Assembly (NCBI RefSeq): GCF_002257585.1
Contig: NZ_CP022743.1
Span: 1,550,001 to 1,614,000, forward strand
Length of the DNA stretch: 64,000 nt
Reading direction: 5' to 3'
Origin: Mucilaginibacter xinganensis
Lineage (GTDB): Bacteria; Bacteroidota; Bacteroidia; Sphingobacteriales; Sphingobacteriaceae
Of the stretch, positions 21,305-31,528 are shown piece after piece. Made by a program: the position numbers and the translations under genes. Within the stretch, counting starts at the first letter, position 1; each line of letters opens with the position of its first letter. Below the pieces are notes generated by a model. That model was not told the DNA's origin and searched no databases. It was given only the letters and a program-made list of their open reading frames with translations.

Positions 21305-22063
21305 ATGTTAGTTAATATTGATGTTATTATACTGAGCTATGGTAAAACAACGGCTTTGCAAAGTATTACCCGAAACGGTATTGAAACTTTATTGGCTTCA
21401 GAAGAACCTGAAAAAATAAAGTTGAATGTTATTGTTGTTGAATCTGATCAATCACTTTCGCCTTACCAATACCCGGGCGCCATAACAATTTATCCGAATA
21501 CCGTTTTCGGTTATCACAAGTTCATGAACATCGGCTTAAAAGCATGCGCCAGTACTTATGTGTGTCTTTGTAATAACGATTTAGTTTTCCATAAACACTG
21601 GGCCACCAATATTTTAATGGAGATGGATAAAGATCCTGCGCTGTTAAGCGCGTCGCCTTACGACGACAGGTTTCATCAAGATGAAGGTTTTTCCAAATTT
21701 CAGCCGCCCCTTGAGGGTTATATGGGAGTGCTCAGCGGCTGGTGTATTTTTACAAAAAGAGCAATTTTTGATGTGATAGGTCCTCTGGATGAAAACCTGA
21801 CTTTTTGGTACTGCGATGCAGACTATTGCCGGTCGCTGATAAAGCATGGTATCAAAAATTGCCTCGTTTCGTCTTCATTTGTAACCCACCTGGGCAGTGT
21901 ATCAACCAAAACGCTTGATAAAAAAGAGAGCAACAAACTAACTAAACTGCCTGAGTTTTACTACAGGTACAAATGGCAGCATCAGTCGTACATCAAATAT
22001 AAACTGCAGGTAATAAAGTATAAGTTACAGATAGCCTTTGGGCTTAACGGCCAATCCGGTTGA
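21305..22063 (+). CDS. Family 2 glycosyltransferase at the head of the peptide-export cluster
   Basis: A 252-residue cytoplasmic GT-A enzyme with no membrane segment. It starts with IDVIILSYGKTTALQSI, has the metal/nucleotide-binding segment CNNDLVFH (N90 N91 D92, in place of the usual DxD) and the acceptor-side block GWCIFTKRAIFDVIGPLDE followed by WYCDADYCRSL. The NND form resembles the rhamnosyl-type GT2 subgroup. It lies 160 bases upstream of a C39-peptidase exporter, in the same direction. In glycocin clusters a GT2 enzyme modifies Cys or Ser of the precursor, so this gene is the first candidate for a peptide-modifying transferase; a cell-wall or capsule role is the alternative. Confidence 0.8.
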   Translation: MLVNIDVIILSYGKTTALQSITRNGIETLLASEEPEKIKLNVIVVESDQSLSPYQYPGAITIYPNTVFGYHKFMNIGLKACASTYVCLCNNDLVFHKHWATNILMEMDKDPALLSASPYDDRFHQDEGFSKFQPPLEGYMGVLSGWCIFTKRAIFDVIGPLDENLTFWYCDADYCRSLIKHGIKNCLVSSSFVTHLGSVSTKTLDKKESNKLTKLPEFYYRYKWQHQSYIKYKLQVIKYKLQIAFGLNGQSG

Positions 22064-22222
22064 AGGGCGGTTTTTACAAAAATTAACTTTAATGCAATTA
22101 TTGTTTACTGATTAAATGCTTTTCTTTACTATATTGGGAATCAAATAAACCTGTATCATCAATAGCAATAACACTGAGTGATTGCTGAAAGCCAAATAGT
22201 AATTTAATAAACCGTTGCTAAT

Positions 22223-24403
22223 TTGAAAACATTCCCCATTTATAAACAGCAGGATGCGATGGACTGTGGTCCAACCTGCCTGAAAATGATCACCAAATAT
22301 TTTGGCCGCACCTTTAGTATTCAAAAATTGAGGGCTCTTTGCCAAATCACGCACGGCGGGGTTACATTTTTGGACATGAGCGAAGCAGCAGAAAAATTGG
22401 GATTGCATTCTGTTGGGGTTAAAGTAGATGTGGCGCAGTTAAAGGAGCTGGAGTTACCCTGTATTTTGCATTGGCGCCAAAACCACTTTGTAATACTTTA
22501 TAAAATAAAGAAGGGGATTTTTTATATAGCCGACCCGGCAGCCGGCCCAATGAGACTTACCGAAACTGAGTTTACAACCAACTGGATAGCATCGGCTGAA
22601 TATAATGACGGAGTTGCTTTGTTTATCAATTCTACCCCCCGCTTTTATGAGCAGGAAGATGAAAAGACGGGAGAGTTAAGCTGGGCATTCATTGTGAGGT
22701 ATCTTTTCCAATACAGGCAGCTATTGATGCAAATGGTTTTGGCGCTGGCCATGGGTACCGTGCTACAGTTGATCGCCCCGTTTTTAACCCAATCTATAGT
22801 AGACCTGGGGATCTACAGCCATAACCTGAGCTTTATCCAACTGATCTTAATTGCACAGGTGATGATATTTATAGGTAGCACCAGTATGGATTTTATTAAA
22901 TCATGGATCCTGCTGCACATAAGTACCCGCGTAAATATCTCTATCCTTACCGATTTGCTGATAAAACTTATGAAGCTGCCCATGAGCTTTTTTGATACCA
23001 AAACGCCGGGCGACATTATGCAGCGGATCACTGATGAAAAAAGGATTGAATCGTTTTTAACTGGTTCCACCTTAAGTATTGTATTCTCGGTATTCAATTT
23101 TGTGGTTTTCGCGGTGGTTATCGCTATTTATAATTCGGTAATATTTTTTGTTTTTGCAGTGTCCACCATATTGTATGTTACCTGGATACTTATCTTTTTA
23201 AAGAAAAGGCGCGAGCTTGATTATAAACAGTTTTCAAACAACTCAAAAAATCAGGATAACATAATAGAACTTGTTTTTGGGATGCAGGAGATCAAACTGA
23301 ATAACTCCGAGATCAGGAAACGCTGGTCGTGGGAACATATTCAGGCGCGGCTTTTTCGCTTCAATATTAAGTCGCTGGCATTAAACCAGTACCAGCAGGC
23401 GGGTGCCGCCTTTATTAACCAGGGTAAAAACATTTTTATAACCTATTTAAGCGCCAAAGCAGTTATAGACGGTAATTTAACCCTGGGTGCCATGGTGGCT
23501 ATTCAATACATAATAGGGCAGCTTAACGGCCCGGTGGAACAGTTTCTGAATTTTGTTAAAAGTTACCAGGATGCCAGGATAAGTGTTGAACGTTTAAATG
23601 AGATCCACAGGTTAGATGACGAGGAGCCTGAAGGGAAGACCTATATCAACCGTATGCCGGACAATAAGAGCATTGCCTTGCACAACGTAACTTTCAGGTA
23701 TCCGGGGGCGGGTAATGAGCCGGTGTTAAATAGCATTAATCTTTATATCCCGGCAGGTAAAACTACTGCGATAGTGGGAATGAGCGGCAGCGGAAAAACC
23801 ACTATCTTAAAATTACTGCTGCGGTTTTACCTTCCAGAAGCAGGTGATATAAGGGTTGGAACAGAGCGTTTAAATGATATAAGGCATCGCCTGTGGCGCG
23901 ATCAGTGCAGTATTGTAATGCAGGATGGCTACTTGTTTACCGACACAATAGCAAATAATATTGCTATAAGCGATGAAGAACCCGATCCGGAGAAATTAAA
24001 TAATGCCATAAGGATAGCCAACATCCAGGATGTGATTGAATCATTGCCCTATGGATTAAATTCTAGGATAGGCGCCGGCGGCGGCGGATTAAGCCAGGGG
24101 CAAAAACAACGAATACTGATTGCGCGGGCCGTGTATAAGAATCCGGCGTATATTTTTTTTGATGAAGCCACTAATGCGCTGGATGCCAATAACGAGAAAG
24201 TGATTGTTGAGAACCTGGGCGAATTTTTAAAAGGAAAGACAGTTGTGATTGTAGCGCACAGGTTAAGCACTGTGAAAAATGCAGACAATATTGTAGTGCT
24301 GCATAAGGGTAGTATTATAGAGCAGGGCACACACCAGGAGTTAACCCTGAAAAAAGGCGAGTATTATAATTTGATTAAGAATCAACTGGAATTTGGACTA
24401 TAG
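22223..24403 (+). CDS. Peptidase C39-domain ABC transporter (double-glycine peptide exporter)
   Basis: A 726-residue inner-membrane exporter that removes double-glycine leaders while secreting the peptide. The N-terminal C39 peptidase has the full triad: C15 in DCGPTCL, H88 in NHFVILY and D104 in DPAAG. The transmembrane domain spans about 160-440. The ATPase domain has Walker A (GMSGSGKTT, K525), signature LSQGQKQ, Walker B (YIFFDEATNALD) and H-loop (VIVAHRLSTV). The reading frame begins at a TTG, since no ATG precedes the C39 motif in a suitable place. The HlyD gene starts two bases after the stop. Three double-glycine precursors downstream are its obvious substrates. Confidence 0.95.
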   Translation: MKTFPIYKQQDAMDCGPTCLKMITKYFGRTFSIQKLRALCQITHGGVTFLDMSEAAEKLGLHSVGVKVDVAQLKELELPCILHWRQNHFVILYKIKKGIFYIADPAAGPMRLTETEFTTNWIASAEYNDGVALFINSTPRFYEQEDEKTGELSWAFIVRYLFQYRQLLMQMVLALAMGTVLQLIAPFLTQSIVDLGIYSHNLSFIQLILIAQVMIFIGSTSMDFIKSWILLHISTRVNISILTDLLIKLMKLPMSFFDTKTPGDIMQRITDEKRIESFLTGSTLSIVFSVFNFVVFAVVIAIYNSVIFFVFAVSTILYVTWILIFLKKRRELDYKQFSNNSKNQDNIIELVFGMQEIKLNNSEIRKRWSWEHIQARLFRFNIKSLALNQYQQAGAAFINQGKNIFITYLSAKAVIDGNLTLGAMVAIQYIIGQLNGPVEQFLNFVKSYQDARISVERLNEIHRLDDEEPEGKTYINRMPDNKSIALHNVTFRYPGAGNEPVLNSINLYIPAGKTTAIVGMSGSGKTTILKLLLRFYLPEAGDIRVGTERLNDIRHRLWRDQCSIVMQDGYLFTDTIANNIAISDEEPDPEKLNNAIRIANIQDVIESLPYGLNSRIGAGGGGLSQGQKQRILIARAVYKNPAYIFFDEATNALDANNEKVIVENLGEFLKGKTVVIVAHRLSTVKNADNIVVLHKGSIIEQGTHQELTLKKGEYYNLIKNQLEFGL

Positions 24404-24405
24404 CC

Positions 24406-25374
24406 ATGGACGAAAATAATCAGCAGCTGCACAGCGACGAAACACAGGAAATTATTACCAAACCGCCCTCATGGATAATTAAATGGGGGATAACGCTGTT
24501 TGTTATTTGTCTTTTTATACTGGGAGCGCTTTCGTTTATGATCCATTATCCCGACCTGGTAAAAACGCGGATGGTAATTTACGCATCGGGGTCTTCCAGG
24601 CCAATAACAGCTAATGCCGATGGGCGGTTAATAAGGTTGCTTGTAAAAAACAGTCAGGCTGTAACTAAGGGCGAGCCGCTTGCCTTTGTTGAATCGCCTC
24701 AAAGCCACGATGATGTTTTGCAGCTTTCTGATGAATTAAAAATGCTTAAAACCAATATTACTGCAGATCTGGCAGGTCCTACAGAAAAACAGTTGGGGGA
24801 TATGAAGCGAATCAAGGAACATTTTCGGGTTATTTTCAGGCATGAACCACCATTAACCGAGCCGGGAAACACAGCAATGTGCAGTAATTGCAGGGCACCG
24901 TTCATTAACCAGCTAAATACCATAATAACTTACGTAGATAAGTGGAAAAACCAATTTATAGTTAGCGCTTCAAGTGCCGGGAAACTATCAGTCATTGGGT
25001 TAATAACTGAAGGGCAGCCAGTAAAAGCTGGACAGCCTTTATTTTATGTAAGTGATGGTCGATCCGGGTTTTATGGGGAGATGGCTATTTCGCAGTATGA
25101 TATTGGTAAGGTAAAGAAGGGGCAAAAGGTATTGATAAAACTATTAAGCTACCGTTTTGAGGACTTTGGAGTGATAACAGGTACCATTGATACTATTGGA
25201 GCATTGCCATTTAATGACAGCGTTTACGTGTCAAAAGTGATATTTAAAAACCCTGTTAATAGAAATATTATTTTAAAAAGCGGCTTATCAGCAGAATCAG
25301 ATATTATTACCAAAGATGTTTCATTAATTAATAGATTAATTAATAGCTTAAAGAAAGCTGTTCAGGCTCAATGA
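24406..25374 (+). CDS. HlyD-family membrane fusion protein, short form with a CxxC
   Basis: A 322-residue periplasmic adaptor linking the exporter to an outer-membrane channel. One N-terminal membrane segment (about residues 26-47) is followed by a biotinyl-lipoyl-like half (SRPITANADGRLIRLLVKNS), a short helical insert, the second lipoyl half (FIVSASSAGKLSVIGLITEG) and the beta-barrel segment (KGQKVLIKLLSYRFEDFG). HlyD proteins of such systems are usually around 400 residues or more, so the coiled-coil hairpin is reduced here. The insert contains MCSNC (C159, C162), a CxxC pair unusual for this family, in a cluster that otherwise handles disulfides. It is translationally coupled to the exporter gene. 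No outer-membrane TolC-like gene is in the window. Confidence 0.85.
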   Translation: MDENNQQLHSDETQEIITKPPSWIIKWGITLFVICLFILGALSFMIHYPDLVKTRMVIYASGSSRPITANADGRLIRLLVKNSQAVTKGEPLAFVESPQSHDDVLQLSDELKMLKTNITADLAGPTEKQLGDMKRIKEHFRVIFRHEPPLTEPGNTAMCSNCRAPFINQLNTIITYVDKWKNQFIVSASSAGKLSVIGLITEGQPVKAGQPLFYVSDGRSGFYGEMAISQYDIGKVKKGQKVLIKLLSYRFEDFGVITGTIDTIGALPFNDSVYVSKVIFKNPVNRNIILKSGLSAESDIITKDVSLINRLINSLKKAVQAQ

Positions 25375-25484
25375 TTTCCTTTCGATAGCTTTCTTCAGGC
25401 GAAAAAATTTCTTTCAGGAATTGCTTGGTTTATCAAATTAAATATTATAATTTTAAATAACCAATTACTAAACCTGATCATCTT

Positions 25485-27053
25485 ATGGAAAAAAATGTTG
25501 TCGAAACTATTCGCAGCCTTATCGCAATTTTAAACATTCCGGTTACAAAAACAAGTATTATTAACGAGGTAAATGAAAACCCTAATAATGAAAATTTATT
25601 TGGGATAAGTGAGGTATTATCCAAATGGAACATTACAAACGCCGCATATCATTTAAGTCCTGCCGAACTGGATAACGATTTTTGCCCCTTTATAGCCTAT
25701 ATCAGTAAAGGTATTAAGGAGTATGAGTTTGTGGTAGTTAAAACCATTGATGATAAAGAGGTAACCATTTGTAATGAAAATTATAAAAACAAAGTAATTG
25801 AACGAGGTGAGTTTAATAAGCTGTACAACAATACGGCGCTGGTTGTTGAACCCGAGGAAAATGCGGGTGAGATTAATTACAAAGCCAACCGGCAAAAAGA
25901 AATAGCAGAAAGTTTAAAGGTGCCGCTTTTTATATTAGGTGCCGTTTTGTTGCTCTCGGGCTTTTTTATCCAAAACCGCGCTTTTAGCTGGTATAATTGT
26001 TTATTGCTTTTATTAAAAAGTGGAGGACTTACCACAGCTGTTTTGCTGCTGGTACAAAGTATTCAGTCAGATAACCCTTATGTAAAAACACTTTGCTTTA
26101 AGGGCAAACATGCCGATTGCGACGAGATTCTTACCTCAAGGGCCGCAAAGCTGGTGTCGTGGTTATCATGGTCAGAGATTGGGGGGTTTTATTTTGGCGG
26201 TACATTTTTACTGCTGCTGTTCTCATACACAACACCCGGCGTACCCGAAACACTTGCCGTTTTAAGCGCAGCCTGTTTGCCCTATATTGTTTATTCGTTA
26301 AGCTACCAGGCGTTTATTGCAAAAAAGTGGTGTGTACTTTGTACCACGGTACAAGCCGTGCTTTTAGCAGAGTTTTTTGCAAATCTTTCAAACTTTTCAA
26401 ATCCTTTAAACCACCTTACTACAGTGGGGTTTTACCGGATAACCATCAGTATGCTAATGCCGGTGTTGGCCTGGATAGTTGTGAAGCCGCTGTTTAAACG
26501 ATCGGGAGAGTTAAATGCAGCCAGGAAAACGCTGGCTAAGTTTAAACATAACGATGAATTATTTAAAAAGGTTTTATCGGAGCAACCTTCCTATAACCAG
26601 CCAAACCAGGACTTTTCAATTGTTCTGGGAAATCCCGCTTCGAAAAACATCGTAACTATAGTATCCAATCCCTACTGCGGGCCTTGTTCAACAGCGCATA
26701 AAGCGCTTGATGAATGGCTTGCAGTTTCTGACGATCTGCAGGTAAGGGTTGTGTTGACCAATACCCCCCAAAGCAGCGAAGCTGCGCGGCACCTTGTGGC
26801 TTTGAACAATACCGGCGATGCCGAACTTGTTAAGCAGGCATTACACGACTGGTATAAGCAAAGTAAAAAAGACTATCCGTCATGGGCAAAAAAATATCCC
26901 GCCGATTTAGATTCGGTAGCCTGCGATAACGTATTGAGGAAGCAAAACGAGTGGTGCGAATCTGTCGATGTACGGTTTACACCACTGGTGATTTTAAATG
27001 GGCACCAATTGCCTGAGAGTTATGTTATAGAAGATCTGAAGTACCTGATCTGA
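25485..27053 (+). CDS. VKOR-thioredoxin fusion with degenerate C39-like N-terminal domain
   Basis: A 522-residue inner-membrane thiol oxidase predicted to put disulfides into exported peptides. Residues 1-125 look like a C39-peptidase fold that has lost catalysis: there is no Cys near the start, and the His position reads EYEFVVVK. Residues 145-345 form the VKOR four-helix core with the loop cysteines C204 and C212 (LCFKGKHADC) and the quinone-side WCVLC motif (C283, C286). Residues 375-522 form a thioredoxin/DsbA-like domain with CGPC at 398-401. The dead C39-like part may bind double-glycine leaders, as the C39-like domain of HlyB binds its substrate. The gene lies between the exporter pair and three eight-cysteine precursors, which fits its role well. 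Confidence 0.88.
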   Translation: MEKNVVETIRSLIAILNIPVTKTSIINEVNENPNNENLFGISEVLSKWNITNAAYHLSPAELDNDFCPFIAYISKGIKEYEFVVVKTIDDKEVTICNENYKNKVIERGEFNKLYNNTALVVEPEENAGEINYKANRQKEIAESLKVPLFILGAVLLLSGFFIQNRAFSWYNCLLLLLKSGGLTTAVLLLVQSIQSDNPYVKTLCFKGKHADCDEILTSRAAKLVSWLSWSEIGGFYFGGTFLLLLFSYTTPGVPETLAVLSAACLPYIVYSLSYQAFIAKKWCVLCTTVQAVLLAEFFANLSNFSNPLNHLTTVGFYRITISMLMPVLAWIVVKPLFKRSGELNAARKTLAKFKHNDELFKKVLSEQPSYNQPNQDFSIVLGNPASKNIVTIVSNPYCGPCSTAHKALDEWLAVSDDLQVRVVLTNTPQSSEAARHLVALNNTGDAELVKQALHDWYKQSKKDYPSWAKKYPADLDSVACDNVLRKQNEWCESVDVRFTPLVILNGHQLPESYVIEDLKYLI

Positions 27054-27110
27054 TTCCTCAGTTTCGATGTTAACCCCCTATTATAAGTTTTACTGATTTT
27101 AACCGATCAA

Positions 27111-27232
27111 TATATTTTTCTGGCTGATTGTATTCCGTATTACGCAGGATAAATGCAAGCCTGGCCTTAAAAAAATTAAAACCAATATAGAATTAATAAA
27201 TTATGGGAGAAGTTAAGTTAAGATCCGGGTAG
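27111..27232 (+). pseudogene. Possible decayed fourth precursor gene with its upstream block
   Basis: CAGGAT at 27145-27150 is followed by AAATGCAAGCC and AAAACCAATAT and then an ATG at 27203. The CAGGAT-to-ATG distance is 58 bases, against 57, 59 and 60 in the three intact units. The nine-codon frame MGEVKLRSG ends at TAG (27230-27232) and weakly resembles the start of the intact leaders (MKKVSLKLG). The similarity upstream of the ATG is better than in the coding part. I read it as a remnant; chance resemblance in AT-rich DNA is possible. Confidence 0.35.
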
Positions 27233-27365
27233 CCCGGTATGACAGCAGCTGGCAAGCCCTTTTTGCCGGTGGGATTTTGCTGAGATAATTCCTAAACTTT
27301 AACGCTATAATTAAAAATTAAAAATAGTTAATGGTATTTGAACGGGCTTAAAATAGCCTGTATGG

Positions 27366-27463
27366 TATTGTTTTGGCCAATAATTAAGTTGCCTGCCTTA
27401 GTAAAACAGGATAAGGAAAGCCGACCCTGAAAACAGAGGCAACACAATAACAAATTTTCAATT
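27366..27463 (+). promoter_or_regulatory. Conserved upstream block, copy 1
   Basis: This is the first of three near-identical blocks that end at the precursor start codons. Shared landmarks are TATTGTTTTGGCCAA with the TTGGCCAA palindrome, then AATTAAGTTGCCTG, AAAACAGGATAAGG and GAAAACAGAGGC. Conservation outside the coding region points to a promoter/operator or a structured 5' UTR. Confidence 0.7.
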
Positions 27464-27706
27464 ATGAAGAAAGTAGGCTTAAAATTAGGCAGCGTAAAGG
27501 AAATGCTGACTAAGGAAGAGATGAAAAAAATCTCTGGAGGTTATAACGTATGCTGCTGCGTTGGCGGCACTTACGGTTACCTTGAGTGTAACCACAGCTG
27601 GTCTGGCGGGTCCACCAATTGCTCTTCTTACTGCGCTGGCTATGGGGCAAGTGGTGCGCAATGGGATTCAAGCAGCTTATGTAACTACTGGAATAAACCT
27701 TGCTGA
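27464..27706 (+). CDS. Double-glycine leader, eight-cysteine peptide precursor 1
   Basis: An 80-residue precursor. The leader of 26 residues contains LTKEEMKKISGG, the typical Bacteroidota double-glycine signal, with cleavage expected after G26 by the C39 exporter. The 54-residue core starts YNVCCCVGG and has eight cysteines with spacing CCC-x9-C-x10-C-x3-C-x15-C-x6-C, enough for four disulfides. Ser, Gly, Tyr and Trp are abundant; HSWS and WDSSSLC are shared with the two paralogues. No lanthipeptide, radical-SAM or cyclodehydratase gene is nearby, so disulfides (VKOR fusion) and perhaps glycosylation (GT2 and neighbours) are the expected modifications. Activity, for example as a bacteriocin, is inferred only from context. 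Confidence 0.88.
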   Translation: MKKVGLKLGSVKEMLTKEEMKKISGGYNVCCCVGGTYGYLECNHSWSGGSTNCSSYCAGYGASGAQWDSSSLCNYWNKPC

Positions 27707-27713
27707 TTTAAAA

Positions 27714-27737
27714 AAGGGGAGTTGAAAATCTCCCCTT
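27714..27737 (+). terminator. Hairpin after precursor 1
   Basis: AAGGGGAG (27714-27721) pairs with CTCCCCTT (27730-27737). The following T-tract is poor, so termination may be partial. Confidence 0.55.
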
Positions 27738-27778
27738 CAGCTATTGCACTCACCTATTGAAATTATTTGCGCGAAAAA

Positions 27779-27878
27779 TATTGTTTTGGCCAACAATTAA
27801 GTTGCCTGCCTTGGTAAAACAGGATAGGGAAATGCCCAACCCGAAAACAGAGGTAACACCAATATTAAATTTATAATT
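27779..27878 (+). promoter_or_regulatory. Conserved upstream block, copy 2
   Basis: This has the same landmarks as copy 1: TATTGTTTTGGCCAACAAT, AAGTTGCCTGCCTTGG, AAAACAGGATAGGG and GAAAACAGAGG. Here ATTGTT and AACAAT flank the GGCC centre and give an inverted repeat with a two-base bulge. Confidence 0.7.
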
Positions 27879-28142
27879 ATGAAAAAAGTGAGTTTAAAAT
27901 TAGGCAGCGTAAAGGAAATGCTGACTAAAGAAGAAATGAAAAAAATTGCAGGTGGTTATGCTATGTGTTGCTGTATAGGCGGCGTGTATGGTAACCTTGA
28001 CTGCACCCATAGCTGGTCGCGGTCACTTGATTCAACAGGCAGTTGTTACCACACATGTACAGATCCAAATTCTCAAAATCCGGGTACTGGTGGTGCTTTG
28101 TGGGATTCGAGCAGCTTGTGCAACCATTGGGGGCATTGCTAA
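27879..28142 (+). CDS. Double-glycine leader, eight-cysteine peptide precursor 2
   Basis: An 87-residue precursor with a 26-residue leader nearly identical to its neighbours (ending LTKEEMKKIAGG) and a 61-residue core starting YAMCCCIGG. It keeps all eight cysteines, but the loops are longer: CCC-x9-C-x13-C-x3-C-x20-C-x5-C. It is the most divergent of the three; the segment between Cys4 and Cys7 is different while GNLDCTHSWS and WDSSSLCNHW are kept. This pattern, fixed cysteines with variable loops, suggests diversification of a disulfide scaffold. It has its own upstream block and terminator, so its expression can be independent of the others. Confidence 0.88.
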   Translation: MKKVSLKLGSVKEMLTKEEMKKIAGGYAMCCCIGGVYGNLDCTHSWSRSLDSTGSCYHTCTDPNSQNPGTGGALWDSSSLCNHWGHC

Positions 28143-28150
28143 TAAAAAGG

Positions 28151-28173
28151 AGTCCTTCACAAAGGGCTTTTTT
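28151..28173 (+). terminator. Intrinsic terminator after precursor 2
   Basis: AGTCCTT (28151-28157) pairs with AAGGGCT (28162-28168, one G-U pair), followed by TTTTT. Confidence 0.7.
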
Positions 28174-28188
28174 CGGTACTGTTTAAAA

Positions 28189-28290
28189 TATTGTTTGGCC
28201 AACAATTAAGTTGCCTGTCTTAACATAAAACAGGATAAGGAAAGCCGACCCCGAAAATAGAGGCACAACCAATAAATAAATTTTTAAACT
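28189..28290 (+). promoter_or_regulatory. Conserved upstream block, copy 3
   Basis: The block has TATTGTTTGGCCAACAAT, AAGTTGCCTGTCTTAA, AAAACAGGATAAGG, AAAGCCGACCCCGAAAA and AGAGGC. The ATTGTT/AACAAT arms around GGCC differ from copy 2 by one deleted T. CCTGT and ACAGG could form a second small stem. Confidence 0.7.
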
Positions 28291-28539
28291 ATGAAAAAAG
28301 TAAGTTTAAAATTAGGCAGCGTAAAAGAAATGCTGACTAAAGAAGAAATGAAAAAAATTGCCGGTGGTTACAATGTATGTTGCTGCGTTGGCGGTACGTA
28401 TGGTAACCTTGATTGTACCCACAGCTGGTCTGGGGGCATTGGGCAAACCAACTGCTCTTCTTATTGCGCAGGGTATGGTGCAACTGGTGCACAATGGGAT
28501 TCAAGCAGTTTGTGTAACCACTGGGGACAGTGCAGCTAA
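28291..28539 (+). CDS. Double-glycine leader, eight-cysteine peptide precursor 3
   Basis: An 82-residue precursor with a 26-residue leader ending KKIAGG and a 56-residue core starting YNVCCCVGG. The cysteine pattern is CCC-x9-C-x12-C-x3-C-x15-C-x5-C, followed by a terminal Ser. It is closest to precursor 1 over the segment SSYCAGYGATGAQWDSSSLC and closest to precursor 2 over GNLDCTHSWS and CNHWG, as expected for recent tandem duplication with exchange. The strong hairpin right after the stop separates it from the convergent glycosyltransferase-like gene. Confidence 0.88.
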   Translation: MKKVSLKLGSVKEMLTKEEMKKIAGGYNVCCCVGGTYGNLDCTHSWSGGIGQTNCSSYCAGYGATGAQWDSSSLCNHWGQCS

Positions 28540-28573
28540 AATAACGAGGAGCCTTCGGGCTCCTTGTTATTTT
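28538..28573. terminator. Bidirectional terminator between precursor 3 and the minus-strand gene
   Basis: AAAATAACGAGGAGCC (28538-28553) pairs over 16 positions, one of them G-U, with GGCTCCTTGTTATTTT (28558-28573), with a TTCG tetraloop. A/T tracts on both sides suit both strands. The stem overlaps the stop codon of the minus-strand gene. Confidence 0.9.
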
Positions 28574-29460
28574 AATAAGTTTTGTGTTTCCAGCAGCCCG
28601 TCTGCGGATGCAGGATCGTTTTTTAAGAAGTAATTCCTTTCGATAAAAAAAATGTCGGGTATTACATCCCATTGGGGTTTAATAAGGTCGGGCTGTTTTT
28701 TGAACTTAATAAGGTGGTATAATATTGCTTCGGCTTTGTTGGCATAATAAAGGCTGCCGGTGTTCCATTCCATTTGGCCACAAAGGCCTTCAATAACCAT
28801 AAAGTTGAAATGTGCCTTTATCTTTCCTTCGGCTGCAAGCTTTTTTACAATATGCGTCATACTCTCAATGGGGGTTTTAATGTCAAAAATAGATAGTCCC
28901 TCCATTAGCGGGATCCAGGCAAAATTACATTCATCAAAACAATAATGATCGGCGCTGGTAAAAACCTTGCGGTGATCTTTACTTAATTTAAAAAGTTCGT
29001 TAACGAACGGGATGTTTTTGAAAAGTGAAAAAAAGCCGGTTATATATTCCTCTCTTACACATATCACCTCATAGCTATCCAGGATTTTATTTGTGATAAA
29101 TCCCCTTATGTCGCCAAAAATCACATCCAGGTCACCATGTCCCCAAAAATCATAATTCATTAAAAAATCATCAAATATGACCCCGTAGGCGGGCTTCAAA
29201 TCGCATAATTTGTATGGGTTGGCAACATTTACAGGCATTGCCAGTTTTTGGGATGCAAGTGTTTCAAACTCGCTGATGTTCATGGACACATGATACACAT
29301 TTTCGGGGAGCGGGTGTGATATTTCGAGATCTCCAATGACATAAAAATGAACACCGGGGTTGTAGGCACATGATTTTAAAAAAAGTTTAAAATACCAGGG
29401 AGCCTGCCCGAAATAGCAGGTGATCAATGCAATTTTATACTTGTTCACAGGTTCAGGCAT
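28567..29460 (-). CDS. DUF6625-like putative glycosyltransferase
   Basis: About 297 residues from the ATG at 29460; an in-frame ATG at 29508 would add 16 residues. The start at 29460 puts the first beta-strand (YKIALITCYFGQAPWYFKLF) near the N-terminus, as usual in this family. The GT-A-like core shows FDDFLMNYDFWGHGDLDVIFG with a DLD (D110, D112) that can bind metal and nucleotide sugar. I assign it to DUF6625 from memory of that family's pattern. It is convergent with the precursor genes and divergent from the DUF6734-like gene. A role in decorating the exported peptides or a surface polymer is possible but unproven. Confidence 0.65.
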   Translation of the reverse strand: MPEPVNKYKIALITCYFGQAPWYFKLFLKSCAYNPGVHFYVIGDLEISHPLPENVYHVSMNISEFETLASQKLAMPVNVANPYKLCDLKPAYGVIFDDFLMNYDFWGHGDLDVIFGDIRGFITNKILDSYEVICVREEYITGFFSLFKNIPFVNELFKLSKDHRKVFTSADHYCFDECNFAWIPLMEGLSIFDIKTPIESMTHIVKKLAAEGKIKAHFNFMVIEGLCGQMEWNTGSLYYANKAEAILYHLIKFKKQPDLIKPQWDVIPDIFFIERNYFLKNDPASADGLLETQNLLK

Positions 29461-29623
29461 TTTGGAAATTTTATGCGGGAGATTGTTTAGTAAATTAACC
29501 CGGCGCAATTTATGCCGGATATTAAATTTTCTCCTTTTTAACAGAACCTAAATATAGAAAGAATTATTTATTGTATATTTATTTAAATAAACCTTTGAGC
29601 AATAATAAACCATTTATCGTTAA

Positions 29624-30934
29624 ATGGACAGTACCATAAAAATTATCCAAACATTATACCTGCCTGGTAATGGCGCAGATCCGTTGAAGAATAGCTTAGG
29701 GTTTCTTTCGCCCGAGTTTAACTGGATGGGTTGGGCGTTAAGCTGTCTACAATTAAAACAATACTACCCGCAGGTTGAGTTATACACCAATAGTGCCGGG
29801 TATGATGTGTTGATAAACCGGCTTAAACTTCCTTATGACGCAGTGCACCTGGTATTAAACGATCTTGATTTCCCTGCCCACCTGTGGGCTTATCCAAAGT
29901 TGTACACATACAGTCTGCAAAACGGGCCGTTTTTACATGTGGACGGCGATGCCTTTTTTTGGGAAAAGTTGGATGATACCACCTTACAGCGCCCGCTTAT
30001 TGCACAGAATATGGAGACTAACGATTCCTACTATCAATCAATTTTAAAGCACCTTTTAAATTTAGGACTGGTTTTTCCCGCGGCTATCACCGATAGCTTA
30101 AATAATGGTAAAAAACTTGCCGCATACAATGCCGGGATAATTGGCGGTAATGACATTGATTTTTTTAAAAAATACGCAGAAGAGGCCTTTGGTTTTGTAA
30201 CTGCCAACTATGAAAAGTTGCAGCTGTTAAAGATCCCGGAGATCAATATGATTTATGAGCAGGTACTGTTTCATTGCCTTGCTGAACAGAACAAAATAGC
30301 GGTAACATGTTATTTGCCGGATGAAGTAACTGATATGACATATCCCGGCTTTGCCGATTTTATGAATGTTGCAGGTGATATAAAGTACATCCACCTGATG
30401 GGTGAATTTAAAAGAAATGTCGATTGCTGTTTTATGCTGGCCAGTCGCTTAAGGCATGATTATCCGGGTTATTATTACCGCGTTATTGATGAATGTAAAA
30501 AAGCCGGGTTCACTTTGTATTTAACATGTTATAATAATGAAATAAATGGAAATTCTGCGGCGTGGTTACGTTTATATGAGCATGAAAAAAAACAGTATGC
30601 AAATGTTGAGTACTTGTTTAGGAACAACAGGTTGCAGTATGCAAAATTTAAAAGAAATAAGTTTTTAAAGATAGCTAACAGTGATAGCGGTATTGTTAGT
30701 TACCATGTGCCGTTAAGCTACAGAATGGAATTTAAGCAGGTTGAGGCAGATCAGTTGGATGGAATTTTAATTGACCTTATGCGTATCGGAAGAACATTTG
30801 CAGAATTGCTGAATTTTATAACCGAATGTTTTGATGAAGGCGATACTACACAAGGCCGGGCGGATATTAGTAAATTGCTTAGCCTTAAACTACGCGCAGG
30901 GTTGTATGGTAATTTGTATGAGGTTTGTTTATAA
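29624..30934 (+). CDS. DUF6734-like putative glycosyltransferase
   Basis: A 436-residue protein without signal peptide or membrane segments. The N-terminal half looks like a GT-A fold: IIQTLYLPGNG at the start, YTNSAGYDVLINRLKLPYD, and HVDGDAFFW with D107 and D109 as a DxD-like pair. It also has NAGIIGGNDIDFFKKYAEEA, as in other glycosyltransferases of the sialic/hexosyl type. The C-terminal 180 residues are helical and unassigned. I assign it to DUF6734 from memory. It starts 163 bases from the DUF6625-like gene in the opposite direction, so the pair may share a regulatory region. It is the last gene that plausibly belongs to the peptide cluster. Confidence 0.6.
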   Translation: MDSTIKIIQTLYLPGNGADPLKNSLGFLSPEFNWMGWALSCLQLKQYYPQVELYTNSAGYDVLINRLKLPYDAVHLVLNDLDFPAHLWAYPKLYTYSLQNGPFLHVDGDAFFWEKLDDTTLQRPLIAQNMETNDSYYQSILKHLLNLGLVFPAAITDSLNNGKKLAAYNAGIIGGNDIDFFKKYAEEAFGFVTANYEKLQLLKIPEINMIYEQVLFHCLAEQNKIAVTCYLPDEVTDMTYPGFADFMNVAGDIKYIHLMGEFKRNVDCCFMLASRLRHDYPGYYYRVIDECKKAGFTLYLTCYNNEINGNSAAWLRLYEHEKKQYANVEYLFRNNRLQYAKFKRNKFLKIANSDSGIVSYHVPLSYRMEFKQVEADQLDGILIDLMRIGRTFAELLNFITECFDEGDTTQGRADISKLLSLKLRAGLYGNLYEVCL

Positions 30935-31069
30935 TAAAACCAATTACAACAACCGGTCAATCTGAATTAATAGCTGGGTGTAAATAATTTTGTAATTTTA
31001 ATTAATTTTATTTCGCTTAACAAAATACTGGAACGGTAATTGTATAATTCATAGCAAAACTATAAAACT

Positions 31070-31528
31070 ATGGAAACTACAACAGAAATGACAACCGAAA
31101 TTTTGAACGACCTGATAGCCATTAATAATGACCGTATAACCGGTTACGAGAGAGCTGCCGGCGAATTAAAAGAAGAAGATGCCGACCTGAGAGCGCTTTT
31201 TACTGACATGGTAGCCGAGAGCCATCAATGTAAGATGGAACTGGCAAACGAGGTTGCTGCAAACGGGGGCGATATTGAACAAGGCACCACTACCAGCGGA
31301 AAGATTTACCGCGCCTGGATGGATGTAAAAGCAGTTTTTACCGGGCACGACCGTAAAACTGTACTTGAGAATTGTGAAGCTGGTGAAGATGCGGCTCAAA
31401 AAGCCTACACCACAGCTTTACGCGAAGAAGAATTACCTGCTTACATCCGCACGATGATCAGCAAGCAAAAGGAAGATTTAAAAGTATCGCATGATAAAAT
31501 TAAAAACCTGCGCGACTTTCAGAGTTAA
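31070..31528 (+). CDS. PA2169/DUF2383-type four-helix-bundle protein
   Basis: A 152-residue acidic, wholly helical protein. It resembles the ferritin-like PA2169 family: ILNDLIAINNDRITGYERAA, ALFTDMVAESHQCKMELANE, GKIYRAWMDVKAVFTGHDRK and ILENCEAGEDAAQKAY-like spacing (here VLENCEAGEDAAQKAYTTAL). Members are often stress-induced; their biochemical role is not established, and no clear di-iron ligand set can be assigned from sequence alone. It stands alone between the peptide cluster and the phosphohexomutase gene and ends at a strong terminator. Confidence 0.85.
   Translation: METTTEMTTEILNDLIAINNDRITGYERAAGELKEEDADLRALFTDMVAESHQCKMELANEVAANGGDIEQGTTTSGKIYRAWMDVKAVFTGHDRKTVLENCEAGEDAAQKAYTTALREEELPAYIRTMISKQKEDLKVSHDKIKNLRDFQS

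Follow-up and report, generated by a model that had tools for sequence, protein, structure and literature searches.

A candidate Bacteroidota system for exported, disulfide-rich and possibly glycosylated peptides in Mucilaginibacter xinganensis

Glycocins have two nested disulfides and a paired CX6C layout. Ten of them, all from Bacillota, were known in 2022 according to a passage of PMC9576775, and excerpts of PMC12457901 on sublancin, glycocin F and thg/org describe a shared gene set of a glycosyltransferase, a C39 peptidase-containing ATP-binding cassette transporter (PCAT) that removes the leader, thioredoxin-like proteins and a cysteine-rich precursor. Here, we analysed a 64,000-nucleotide stretch of the Mucilaginibacter xinganensis genome (the window; G000:C1:1550001-1614000, in a genome of one 5.3 Mb contig), in which a Bacteroidota locus associates a C39 exporter, an HlyD adaptor, a VKOR-thioredoxin fusion protein, three double-glycine (GG) precursors and proteins of the families DUF6625 and DUF6734, all present where a sequence-only reading of this DNA had placed them. 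GG leaders and an exporter with intact C39 residues bring the locus close to glycocins, as do cysteine-rich cores and a disulfide-forming partner, here the fusion protein replacing the thioredoxin-like proteins. By contrast, paired CX6C segments and a SunS/GccA-type GT2 enzyme are absent, and tailoring is predicted to rely on GT-A, GT8/GT6-like enzymes (DUF6734 and DUF6625). The counterpart to glycocins proposed by the sequence-only reading may thus stand in its way of working, but not in its enzyme or its cysteine layout, and the precursors are, as it had remarked, unlike sublancin or glycocin F. Our best reading, drawn from sequence, is a glycocin-like but non-homologous system that would export a disulfide-rich peptide with optional glycosyltransferase tailoring. 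We consider it reasonably probable that the locus is a Bacteroidota system of the ribosomally synthesised and post-translationally modified peptide (RiPP) type, whose secreted cysteine-rich peptides would be cleaved by the exporter, locked by disulfides and possibly glycosylated.

Two other described groups invite comparison. RiPP clusters of Bacteroidales with PCATs in some cases carry accessory glycosyltransferases and a peptide S-glycosyltransferase domain, as reported in portions of PMC10352776; PCAT export is common to these clusters and the window, as are, for some of them, glycosyltransferases, whereas the radical SAM and LanC proteins of the former were not found among the ten window proteins scanned with Pfam (21305-31528), and the terms 'VKOR' and 'disulfide' are absent from the main text of that paper. 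Bacteroidetocins are likewise peptide toxins of Bacteroidetes, which part of PMC6671954 describes as relatives of class IIa bacteriocins, and they are compared here by description only.

The three precursors each bear eight cysteines after the GG site, as first read, and lie as tandem copies spaced by 409-415 bases, precursors 2 and 3 being respectively 70% and 87% identical to precursor 1. Third codon positions hold 52 to 67% of the base differences among the genes. Silent changes predominate in the leader codons, and the cores count 24 replacements vs 13 silent changes between precursors 1 and 2, and 20 vs 16 between precursors 2 and 3. Every gene is moreover preceded by a repeated block and followed by a 3' hairpin. 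Because of this codon-position pattern, this split of silent and replacement changes, these repeated blocks and these hairpins, the three precursors are, on the evidence of their sequences, real and diversifying tandem genes, and not chance open reading frames (ORFs). Their leaders resemble the TIGR04149 family of radical SAM-modified RiPPs but score 16.1, 16.1 and 20.2 bits, below the curated cut-off of 25, and the radical SAM partner is missing from the scanned proteins. Precursor 1 has its cysteines at positions 30, 31, 32, 42, 53, 57, 73 and 80, with a single CX6C (zero in precursors 2 and 3), and the window cores start with CCC, which departs from the C-C-CC-C-C spacing of inhibitor cystine knots. 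Against the PDB, precursor 1 returned a single match, at E 8.2.

The C39 catalytic residues of the exporter are intact, in agreement with the sequence-only reading. Its VKOR-thioredoxin oxidase was recovered with VKOR and Thioredoxin_4 domains, but the C39-like domain of this fusion lacks catalytic residues (the cysteine is absent; histidine and aspartate were assessed by eye). Across an alignment of 13 fusions, in which the 12 besides that of the window share 26-41% identity with it, six cysteines of the VKOR and thioredoxin parts (C204, C212, C283, C286, C398 and C401) are invariant. Fusion matches at E<=1e-10, a few of which may be incomplete in length since some are partial, occur in at least 100 of 301 family genomes, such counts being lower bounds with at most four candidates scored per genome, and matches at E<=1e-20 occur in 39 of 326 genomes sampled across the phylum. 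We did not find relatives of the fusion in viral contigs. Two overlapping sets of related VKOR loci were compared, of 120 and 80 loci, the larger one consisting of stretches around fusion genes, some shortened by contig ends, with five genomes holding only short fusion matches left aside (G070, G169, G257, G261 and G297). Of these 120 stretches, 91 hold an ABC match, 88 an HlyD match and 61 a TlpA-like thioredoxin, of which one representative carries DUF4369 and thioredoxin domains. Together with the window, they yielded 132 unique GG cores on the fusion strand. Among 127 cores with at least three cysteines at VKOR loci, 124 had an even number of cysteines and three an odd number; because these counts are almost always even, they are strong evidence that GG cores at VKOR loci would be disulfide-bonded. 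The invariant VKOR and thioredoxin cysteines and this even-number rule lend good support, at the sequence level, to the predicted disulfide-linked exported peptides of the sequence-only reading. The same genome encodes two more VKOR fusions (G000:C1:1155286-1156833 and 5010478-5012106), one of which is accompanied by two six-cysteine GG precursors (L076).

Our literature search returned no papers on DUF6625 or DUF6734. Compared profile to profile with the other glycosyltransferase (GT) families of the loci, neither exceeded a probability of 5.1%; against PDB chains, the DUF6734 profile gave six matches, none a glycosyltransferase (best E 0.011, an AUGMIN subunit), and the DUF6625 profile gave zero. 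Profile searches having thus found no kinship with glycosyltransferases, fold comparison was needed. The AlphaFold model of the DUF6734 protein has a mean predicted local distance difference test (pLDDT) score of 78.9, mostly above 90 over residues 1-300, and all 50 Foldseek matches listed are glycosyltransferases (best E 6.5e-7), with TM-scores among them of at most 0.35 when scaled to the query and 0.59 when scaled to the target. VIA-align placed it on glycogenin with Z 13.2 (218 aligned residues, 3.9 A; many rows tied). H105, D107 and D109 are invariant, the DxD pair D107/D109 in 37 aligned sequences, within a predicted GT-A fold. For the DUF6625 protein, VIA returned a bacterial blood-group-type transferase at Z 10.8 (172 aligned residues, 3.1 A; many rows tied), and D126/D128 are invariant in 11 aligned sequences, in a GT-A-like model of fair confidence. 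Among its matches listed, 48 of 50 Foldseek rows and 50 of 50 VIA rows are glycosyltransferases or contain a glycosyltransferase domain; the other two Foldseek rows are chains of 8j2n, a phosphotransferase. The models therefore support DUF6734 and DUF6625 as predicted GT-A glycosyltransferases, with a predicted fold common to glycogenin/GT8 and GT6 enzymes at about 6-16% identity.

Unlike these enzymes, the DUF6734 protein has an additional C-terminal part. At least 407 amino acids were counted in 15 of 16 cellular DUF6734 proteins, vs fewer than 380 in 87 of 88 relative ORFs of viral contigs, and we infer that this extension is a part that would recognise the precursor. A PqqD-like recognition element had been suspected there by eye; ten pieces of this part gave no Pfam support for it, and comparison with LANC-like and other partner families showed no kinship. 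Viral contigs often carry DUF6734-like predicted glycosyltransferases (76 loci, L294-L369); two of these proteins had no PHROG match, nor did a PHROGs search with four proteins return any. At L294:1-4439, from the viral collection, two short DUF6734 genes are followed by a 615-amino-acid protein that looks LanC-like by eye.

Neighbourhoods tie both families to the fusion. DUF6625 matches occur in 18 of the 301 family genomes and DUF6734 matches in 15. A VKOR fusion lies no more than 10 kb away from eight of 19 DUF6625 copies, in seven genomes, where 0.06 would be expected (about 125x; 7/18 without the window), and from six of 18 DUF6734 copies, in four genomes, for 0.14 expected (about 44x; 5/17 without the window). 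VKOR positions were taken for the genomes holding either family, and the expectation treats tandem copies as independent. The 19 DUF6625 places are 20 matches minus one below cut-off, a fragment of 31 positions being counted among them; the 18 DUF6734 places come from 19 matches, two of which are pieces of a single gene and were joined, and a fragment of 36 positions is counted here too. DUF6625 further follows one leader type: in the 80-locus set, an IMAG/S leader end was found at 10 of 10 DUF6625 loci and 2 of 70 others, these two lying on contigs shorter than 3.7 kb, and in the 120-locus set at 4 of 6 and 0 of 114 (p values of 4e-11 and 1.8e-6 are indicative only, the pattern having been written after examples were seen, the sets overlapping and the loci being related). 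For DUF6734, neighbourhoods were read around 17 copies, and in 12 of them the stretch holds a GG precursor or a match to the C39 exporter of the window (E<=9e-193); L206 and L207 are among these, with a strong exporter match close by. At L200, L201, L202 and L204, it adjoins four-cysteine GG precursors with no exporter match nearby, and at L200, L201 and L204 these precursors are similar and the stretch has no VKOR, ABC or HlyD match. L180 holds the two DUF6734 copies closest to that of the window (46 and 44% identity), which are accompanied by GG/Y precursors of eight and four cysteines, and the window precursors are likewise of the GG/Y type. L200 belongs to the same genome as the window (second DUF6734, G000:C1:4714963-4715829), and another four-cysteine precursor lies 170 kb from it at G000:C1:4545101 (L004), both sharing the tail motif PAYCSAAGHGSF.

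The GT2 enzyme, listed with the system in the sequence-only reading, is not a conserved member of it. Besides the window copy, homologues 41-59% identical were found at 24 places in 24 of 301 genomes, its own included, and none of these places is near a fusion match. A scan of NCBIfam, a library that presumably holds a SunS model, gave only TIGR01556, at E 0.08. As its homologues are not linked to VKOR clusters, GT2 was rejected as the main tailoring enzyme and is regarded as an adjacent neighbour of uncertain relevance. The co-occurrence suggested by the sequence-only reading was hence borne out for DUF6625 and DUF6734, which are retained as system parts on co-location, leader linkage and predicted GT-A fold, but not for GT2.

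Other glycosyltransferase families recur at VKOR loci (GT25-like, GT32-like, GT2/GT7C, GT4, GT61 and GT14-like, assigned from scanned representatives only; one GT25-like and one GT7C-like representative had no Pfam glycosyltransferase match). A gene of these families was present in 51/120 and 25/80 loci, counts that are descriptive, with no random-region baseline, and partly circular since the families were defined from the same loci, which is not so for the DUF6625 and DUF6734 counts. As only part of the VKOR loci carry such families, glycosyltransferases look like an optional module. A GT7C-like gene is paired with a LANC-like gene in 11 of the 12 stretches that hold it (e.g. L107:12590-15231 and L154:11121-13626, with Pfam support in L107 and none in L154). 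Two related families of unassigned function (L150:5955-6824 and L106:11534-12364; hhalign probability 94.8%) recur beside a GT2/GT7C gene near VKOR fusions.

From these elements, we propose that the three leader-bearing precursors would be made in the cytosol, where DUF6734, and probably DUF6625, would attach sugar to the core, the C-terminal part of DUF6734 acting in precursor recognition. The leader would then dock on the C39 domain of the exporter and be cut after GG during export. Export by ABC-HlyD systems passes through an outer-membrane channel of the host, and the same route would apply here. The VKOR-thioredoxin fusion would form four disulfides, and its degenerate C39-like domain may hold the leader. 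Judged from sequence, the product is likely a bacteriocin-like peptide, predicted to be disulfide-locked and possibly glycosylated.

Several observations weigh against our best reading. In one alternative, the bacteriocin-like, disulfide-rich peptides carry no sugar, GT2, DUF6625 and DUF6734 being neighbours that act on cell-surface sugars. Recurrent glycosyltransferase genes are absent from 69/120 and 55/80 VKOR loci, which makes half true the consistent lack of glycosyltransferases that the sequence-only reading had named as telling against it. Eight DUF6625 loci without VKOR have no precursor and resemble polysaccharide clusters by eye, L191 holds two DUF6625 copies next to an ABC match, and a precursor was not found there, two of the six DUF6625 loci of the 120-locus set lack the IMAG leader, and five of 17 DUF6734 stretches (L203, L205, L208, L209 and L210) have neither precursor nor strong exporter match. 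In the window itself, the leaders end in GG/Y and not in the IMAG/S type that DUF6625 tracks, and DUF6625 lies on the opposite strand, convergent with the precursors and outside their operon; a tree built from 26 sequences of the family places this copy nearest to VKOR-context copies, on an unsupported branch. Its AlphaFold model is fair only (mean pLDDT 70.4), with a best Foldseek E of 1.3e-5 and TM-scores of 0.2-0.4 on the query. Close relatives of the eight-cysteine core family were found in none of the 301 family or 149 genus genomes, the best match outside the window precursors (E 2.3e-10, vs 8e-48 or better for the three themselves) being mostly leader. GT2 homologues standing away from VKOR genes also suit the unglycosylated alternative. 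However, co-location with the fusion far above expectation, the link of DUF6625 to one precursor type, and DUF6734 beside four-cysteine precursors without any VKOR, ABC or HlyD match at L200, L201 and L204 argue for tailoring, and we regard unglycosylated peptides as unlikely.

The same two observations, DUF6625 following a leader type and DUF6734 standing with precursors but no exporter at these three loci, would be left unexplained if the glycosyltransferases served self-protection by altering the producer's surface receptor or envelope against its own peptide. Envelope glycans are common targets of such GT-A enzymes, and no immunity gene was recognisable among the ten window proteins scanned; we nonetheless judge self-protection clearly improbable. 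A true glycocin, with the GT2 at 21305 acting as a SunS-type S-glycosyltransferase on the precursors, would agree with the glycocin gene set outlined above from PMC12457901, but this enzyme of 252 amino acids matches no peptide-glycosyltransferase model and is unlinked to VKOR clusters elsewhere, the cysteine spacing differs, and eight paired cysteines would leave none for S-glycosylation, making such a glycocin very improbable. Signals or developmental factors in place of antibacterials are suggested by LytTR-type response regulators in 24/120 VKOR loci and by histidine kinases and TonB-receptor-like genes in some of them (labels by eye); 21305-30934 holds no such regulator, and disulfide-locked, fast-varying cores would better suit an antagonistic role, so that we give a signalling function a very small chance. 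Glycosyltransferase tailoring of an exported, disulfide-rich peptide is the reading we retain, and the features of the locus are gathered below. The terminator downstream of precursor 3 is probably bidirectional and common to this gene and the convergent DUF6625 gene.

Table 1. Features of the peptide locus, with positions counted from the first letter of the window.
Feature	Position	Strand	Basis and remarks
GT2 glycosyltransferase, 252 aa	21305..22063	+	PF00535, 25.8 bits (cut-off 23.3); adjacent, membership doubtful
C39-peptidase ABC exporter (PCAT), 726 aa	22223..24403	+	PF03412/PF00664/PF00005; Q9/C15/H88/D104 present
HlyD-type membrane fusion adaptor, 322 aa	24406..25374	+	HlyD_3, PF13437
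Degenerate C39-like + VKOR + thioredoxin (CGPC) fusion, 522 aa	25485..27053	+	Pfam C39, VKOR, Thioredoxin_4
Repeated upstream block, precursor 1	27366..27419	+	Repeat search; further copies 27779-27832, 28188-28241
Precursor peptide 1, 80 aa, GG leader, 8-Cys core	27464..27706	+	
Hairpin 3' of precursor 1	27715..27736	+	Folding, z -2.85
Precursor peptide 2, 87 aa, GG leader, 8-Cys core	27879..28142	+	
Hairpin 3' of precursor 2, weak	28146..28173	+	Folding, z -1.72
Precursor peptide 3, 82 aa, GG leader, 8-Cys core	28291..28539	+	
Strong terminator, precursor 3/DUF6625	28537..28574	.	17-pair stem; z -8.5
DUF6625 protein, predicted GT-A glycosyltransferase	28567..29508	-	PF20330, 209 bits; invariant D126/D128; AlphaFold + Foldseek/VIA
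DUF6734 protein, predicted GT-A (GT8/GT6-like) glycosyltransferase, C-terminal extension	29624..30934	+	PF20508, 335 bits; AlphaFold + Foldseek/VIA

Some cores of other VKOR loci, among them those at L252:7198-8335, L253:3668-4348, L272:2310-2783, L230:9690-10545 and L103:8638-8889, show the spacing of an inhibitor cystine knot, found in 15 of 190 unique cores vs 0.74 on average and at most 4 over 200 shuffles; the 190 cores have a GG or AG leader and at least three cysteines and come from both locus sets, and the knot pattern was written after examples had been seen. Some of these knot-spaced precursors have a glycine-rich spacer after an IMAG/S leader. Among nine IMAG-type precursors compared with Pfam, seven match conotoxin- or spider-toxin-type families, all below cut-off, and two match none; one core had four matches in the PDB (E 0.11 to 2.8), all animal toxins. 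These toxin-family matches may be driven by the cysteines alone, and a literature search on bacterial knottins found no papers.

Taken more broadly, these loci could form a new Bacteroidota ribosomal class of VKOR-oxidised, cystine-rich peptides, some of them knot-spaced, glycosylated by GT8/GT6-like enzymes with DUF6734 recognising precursors through its C-terminal part and DUF6625 specific to IMAG/S leaders, a proposal that we hold as tentative. Our results provide a functional lead for DUF6625 and DUF6734, two families now predicted to be GT-A glycosyltransferases linked with peptide export, and point to a large and little-explored set of disulfide-rich, possibly sugar-bearing peptides whose marker fusion matched in at least 100 of the 301 family genomes. 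If the tentative class is real, a second phylum would have come to glycocin-like chemistry by way of unrelated enzymes, and bacterial genomes would code for knottin-like peptides served by their own oxidase and exporter. Sugar-decorated peptides may thus form a class that is still little explored in bacteria.

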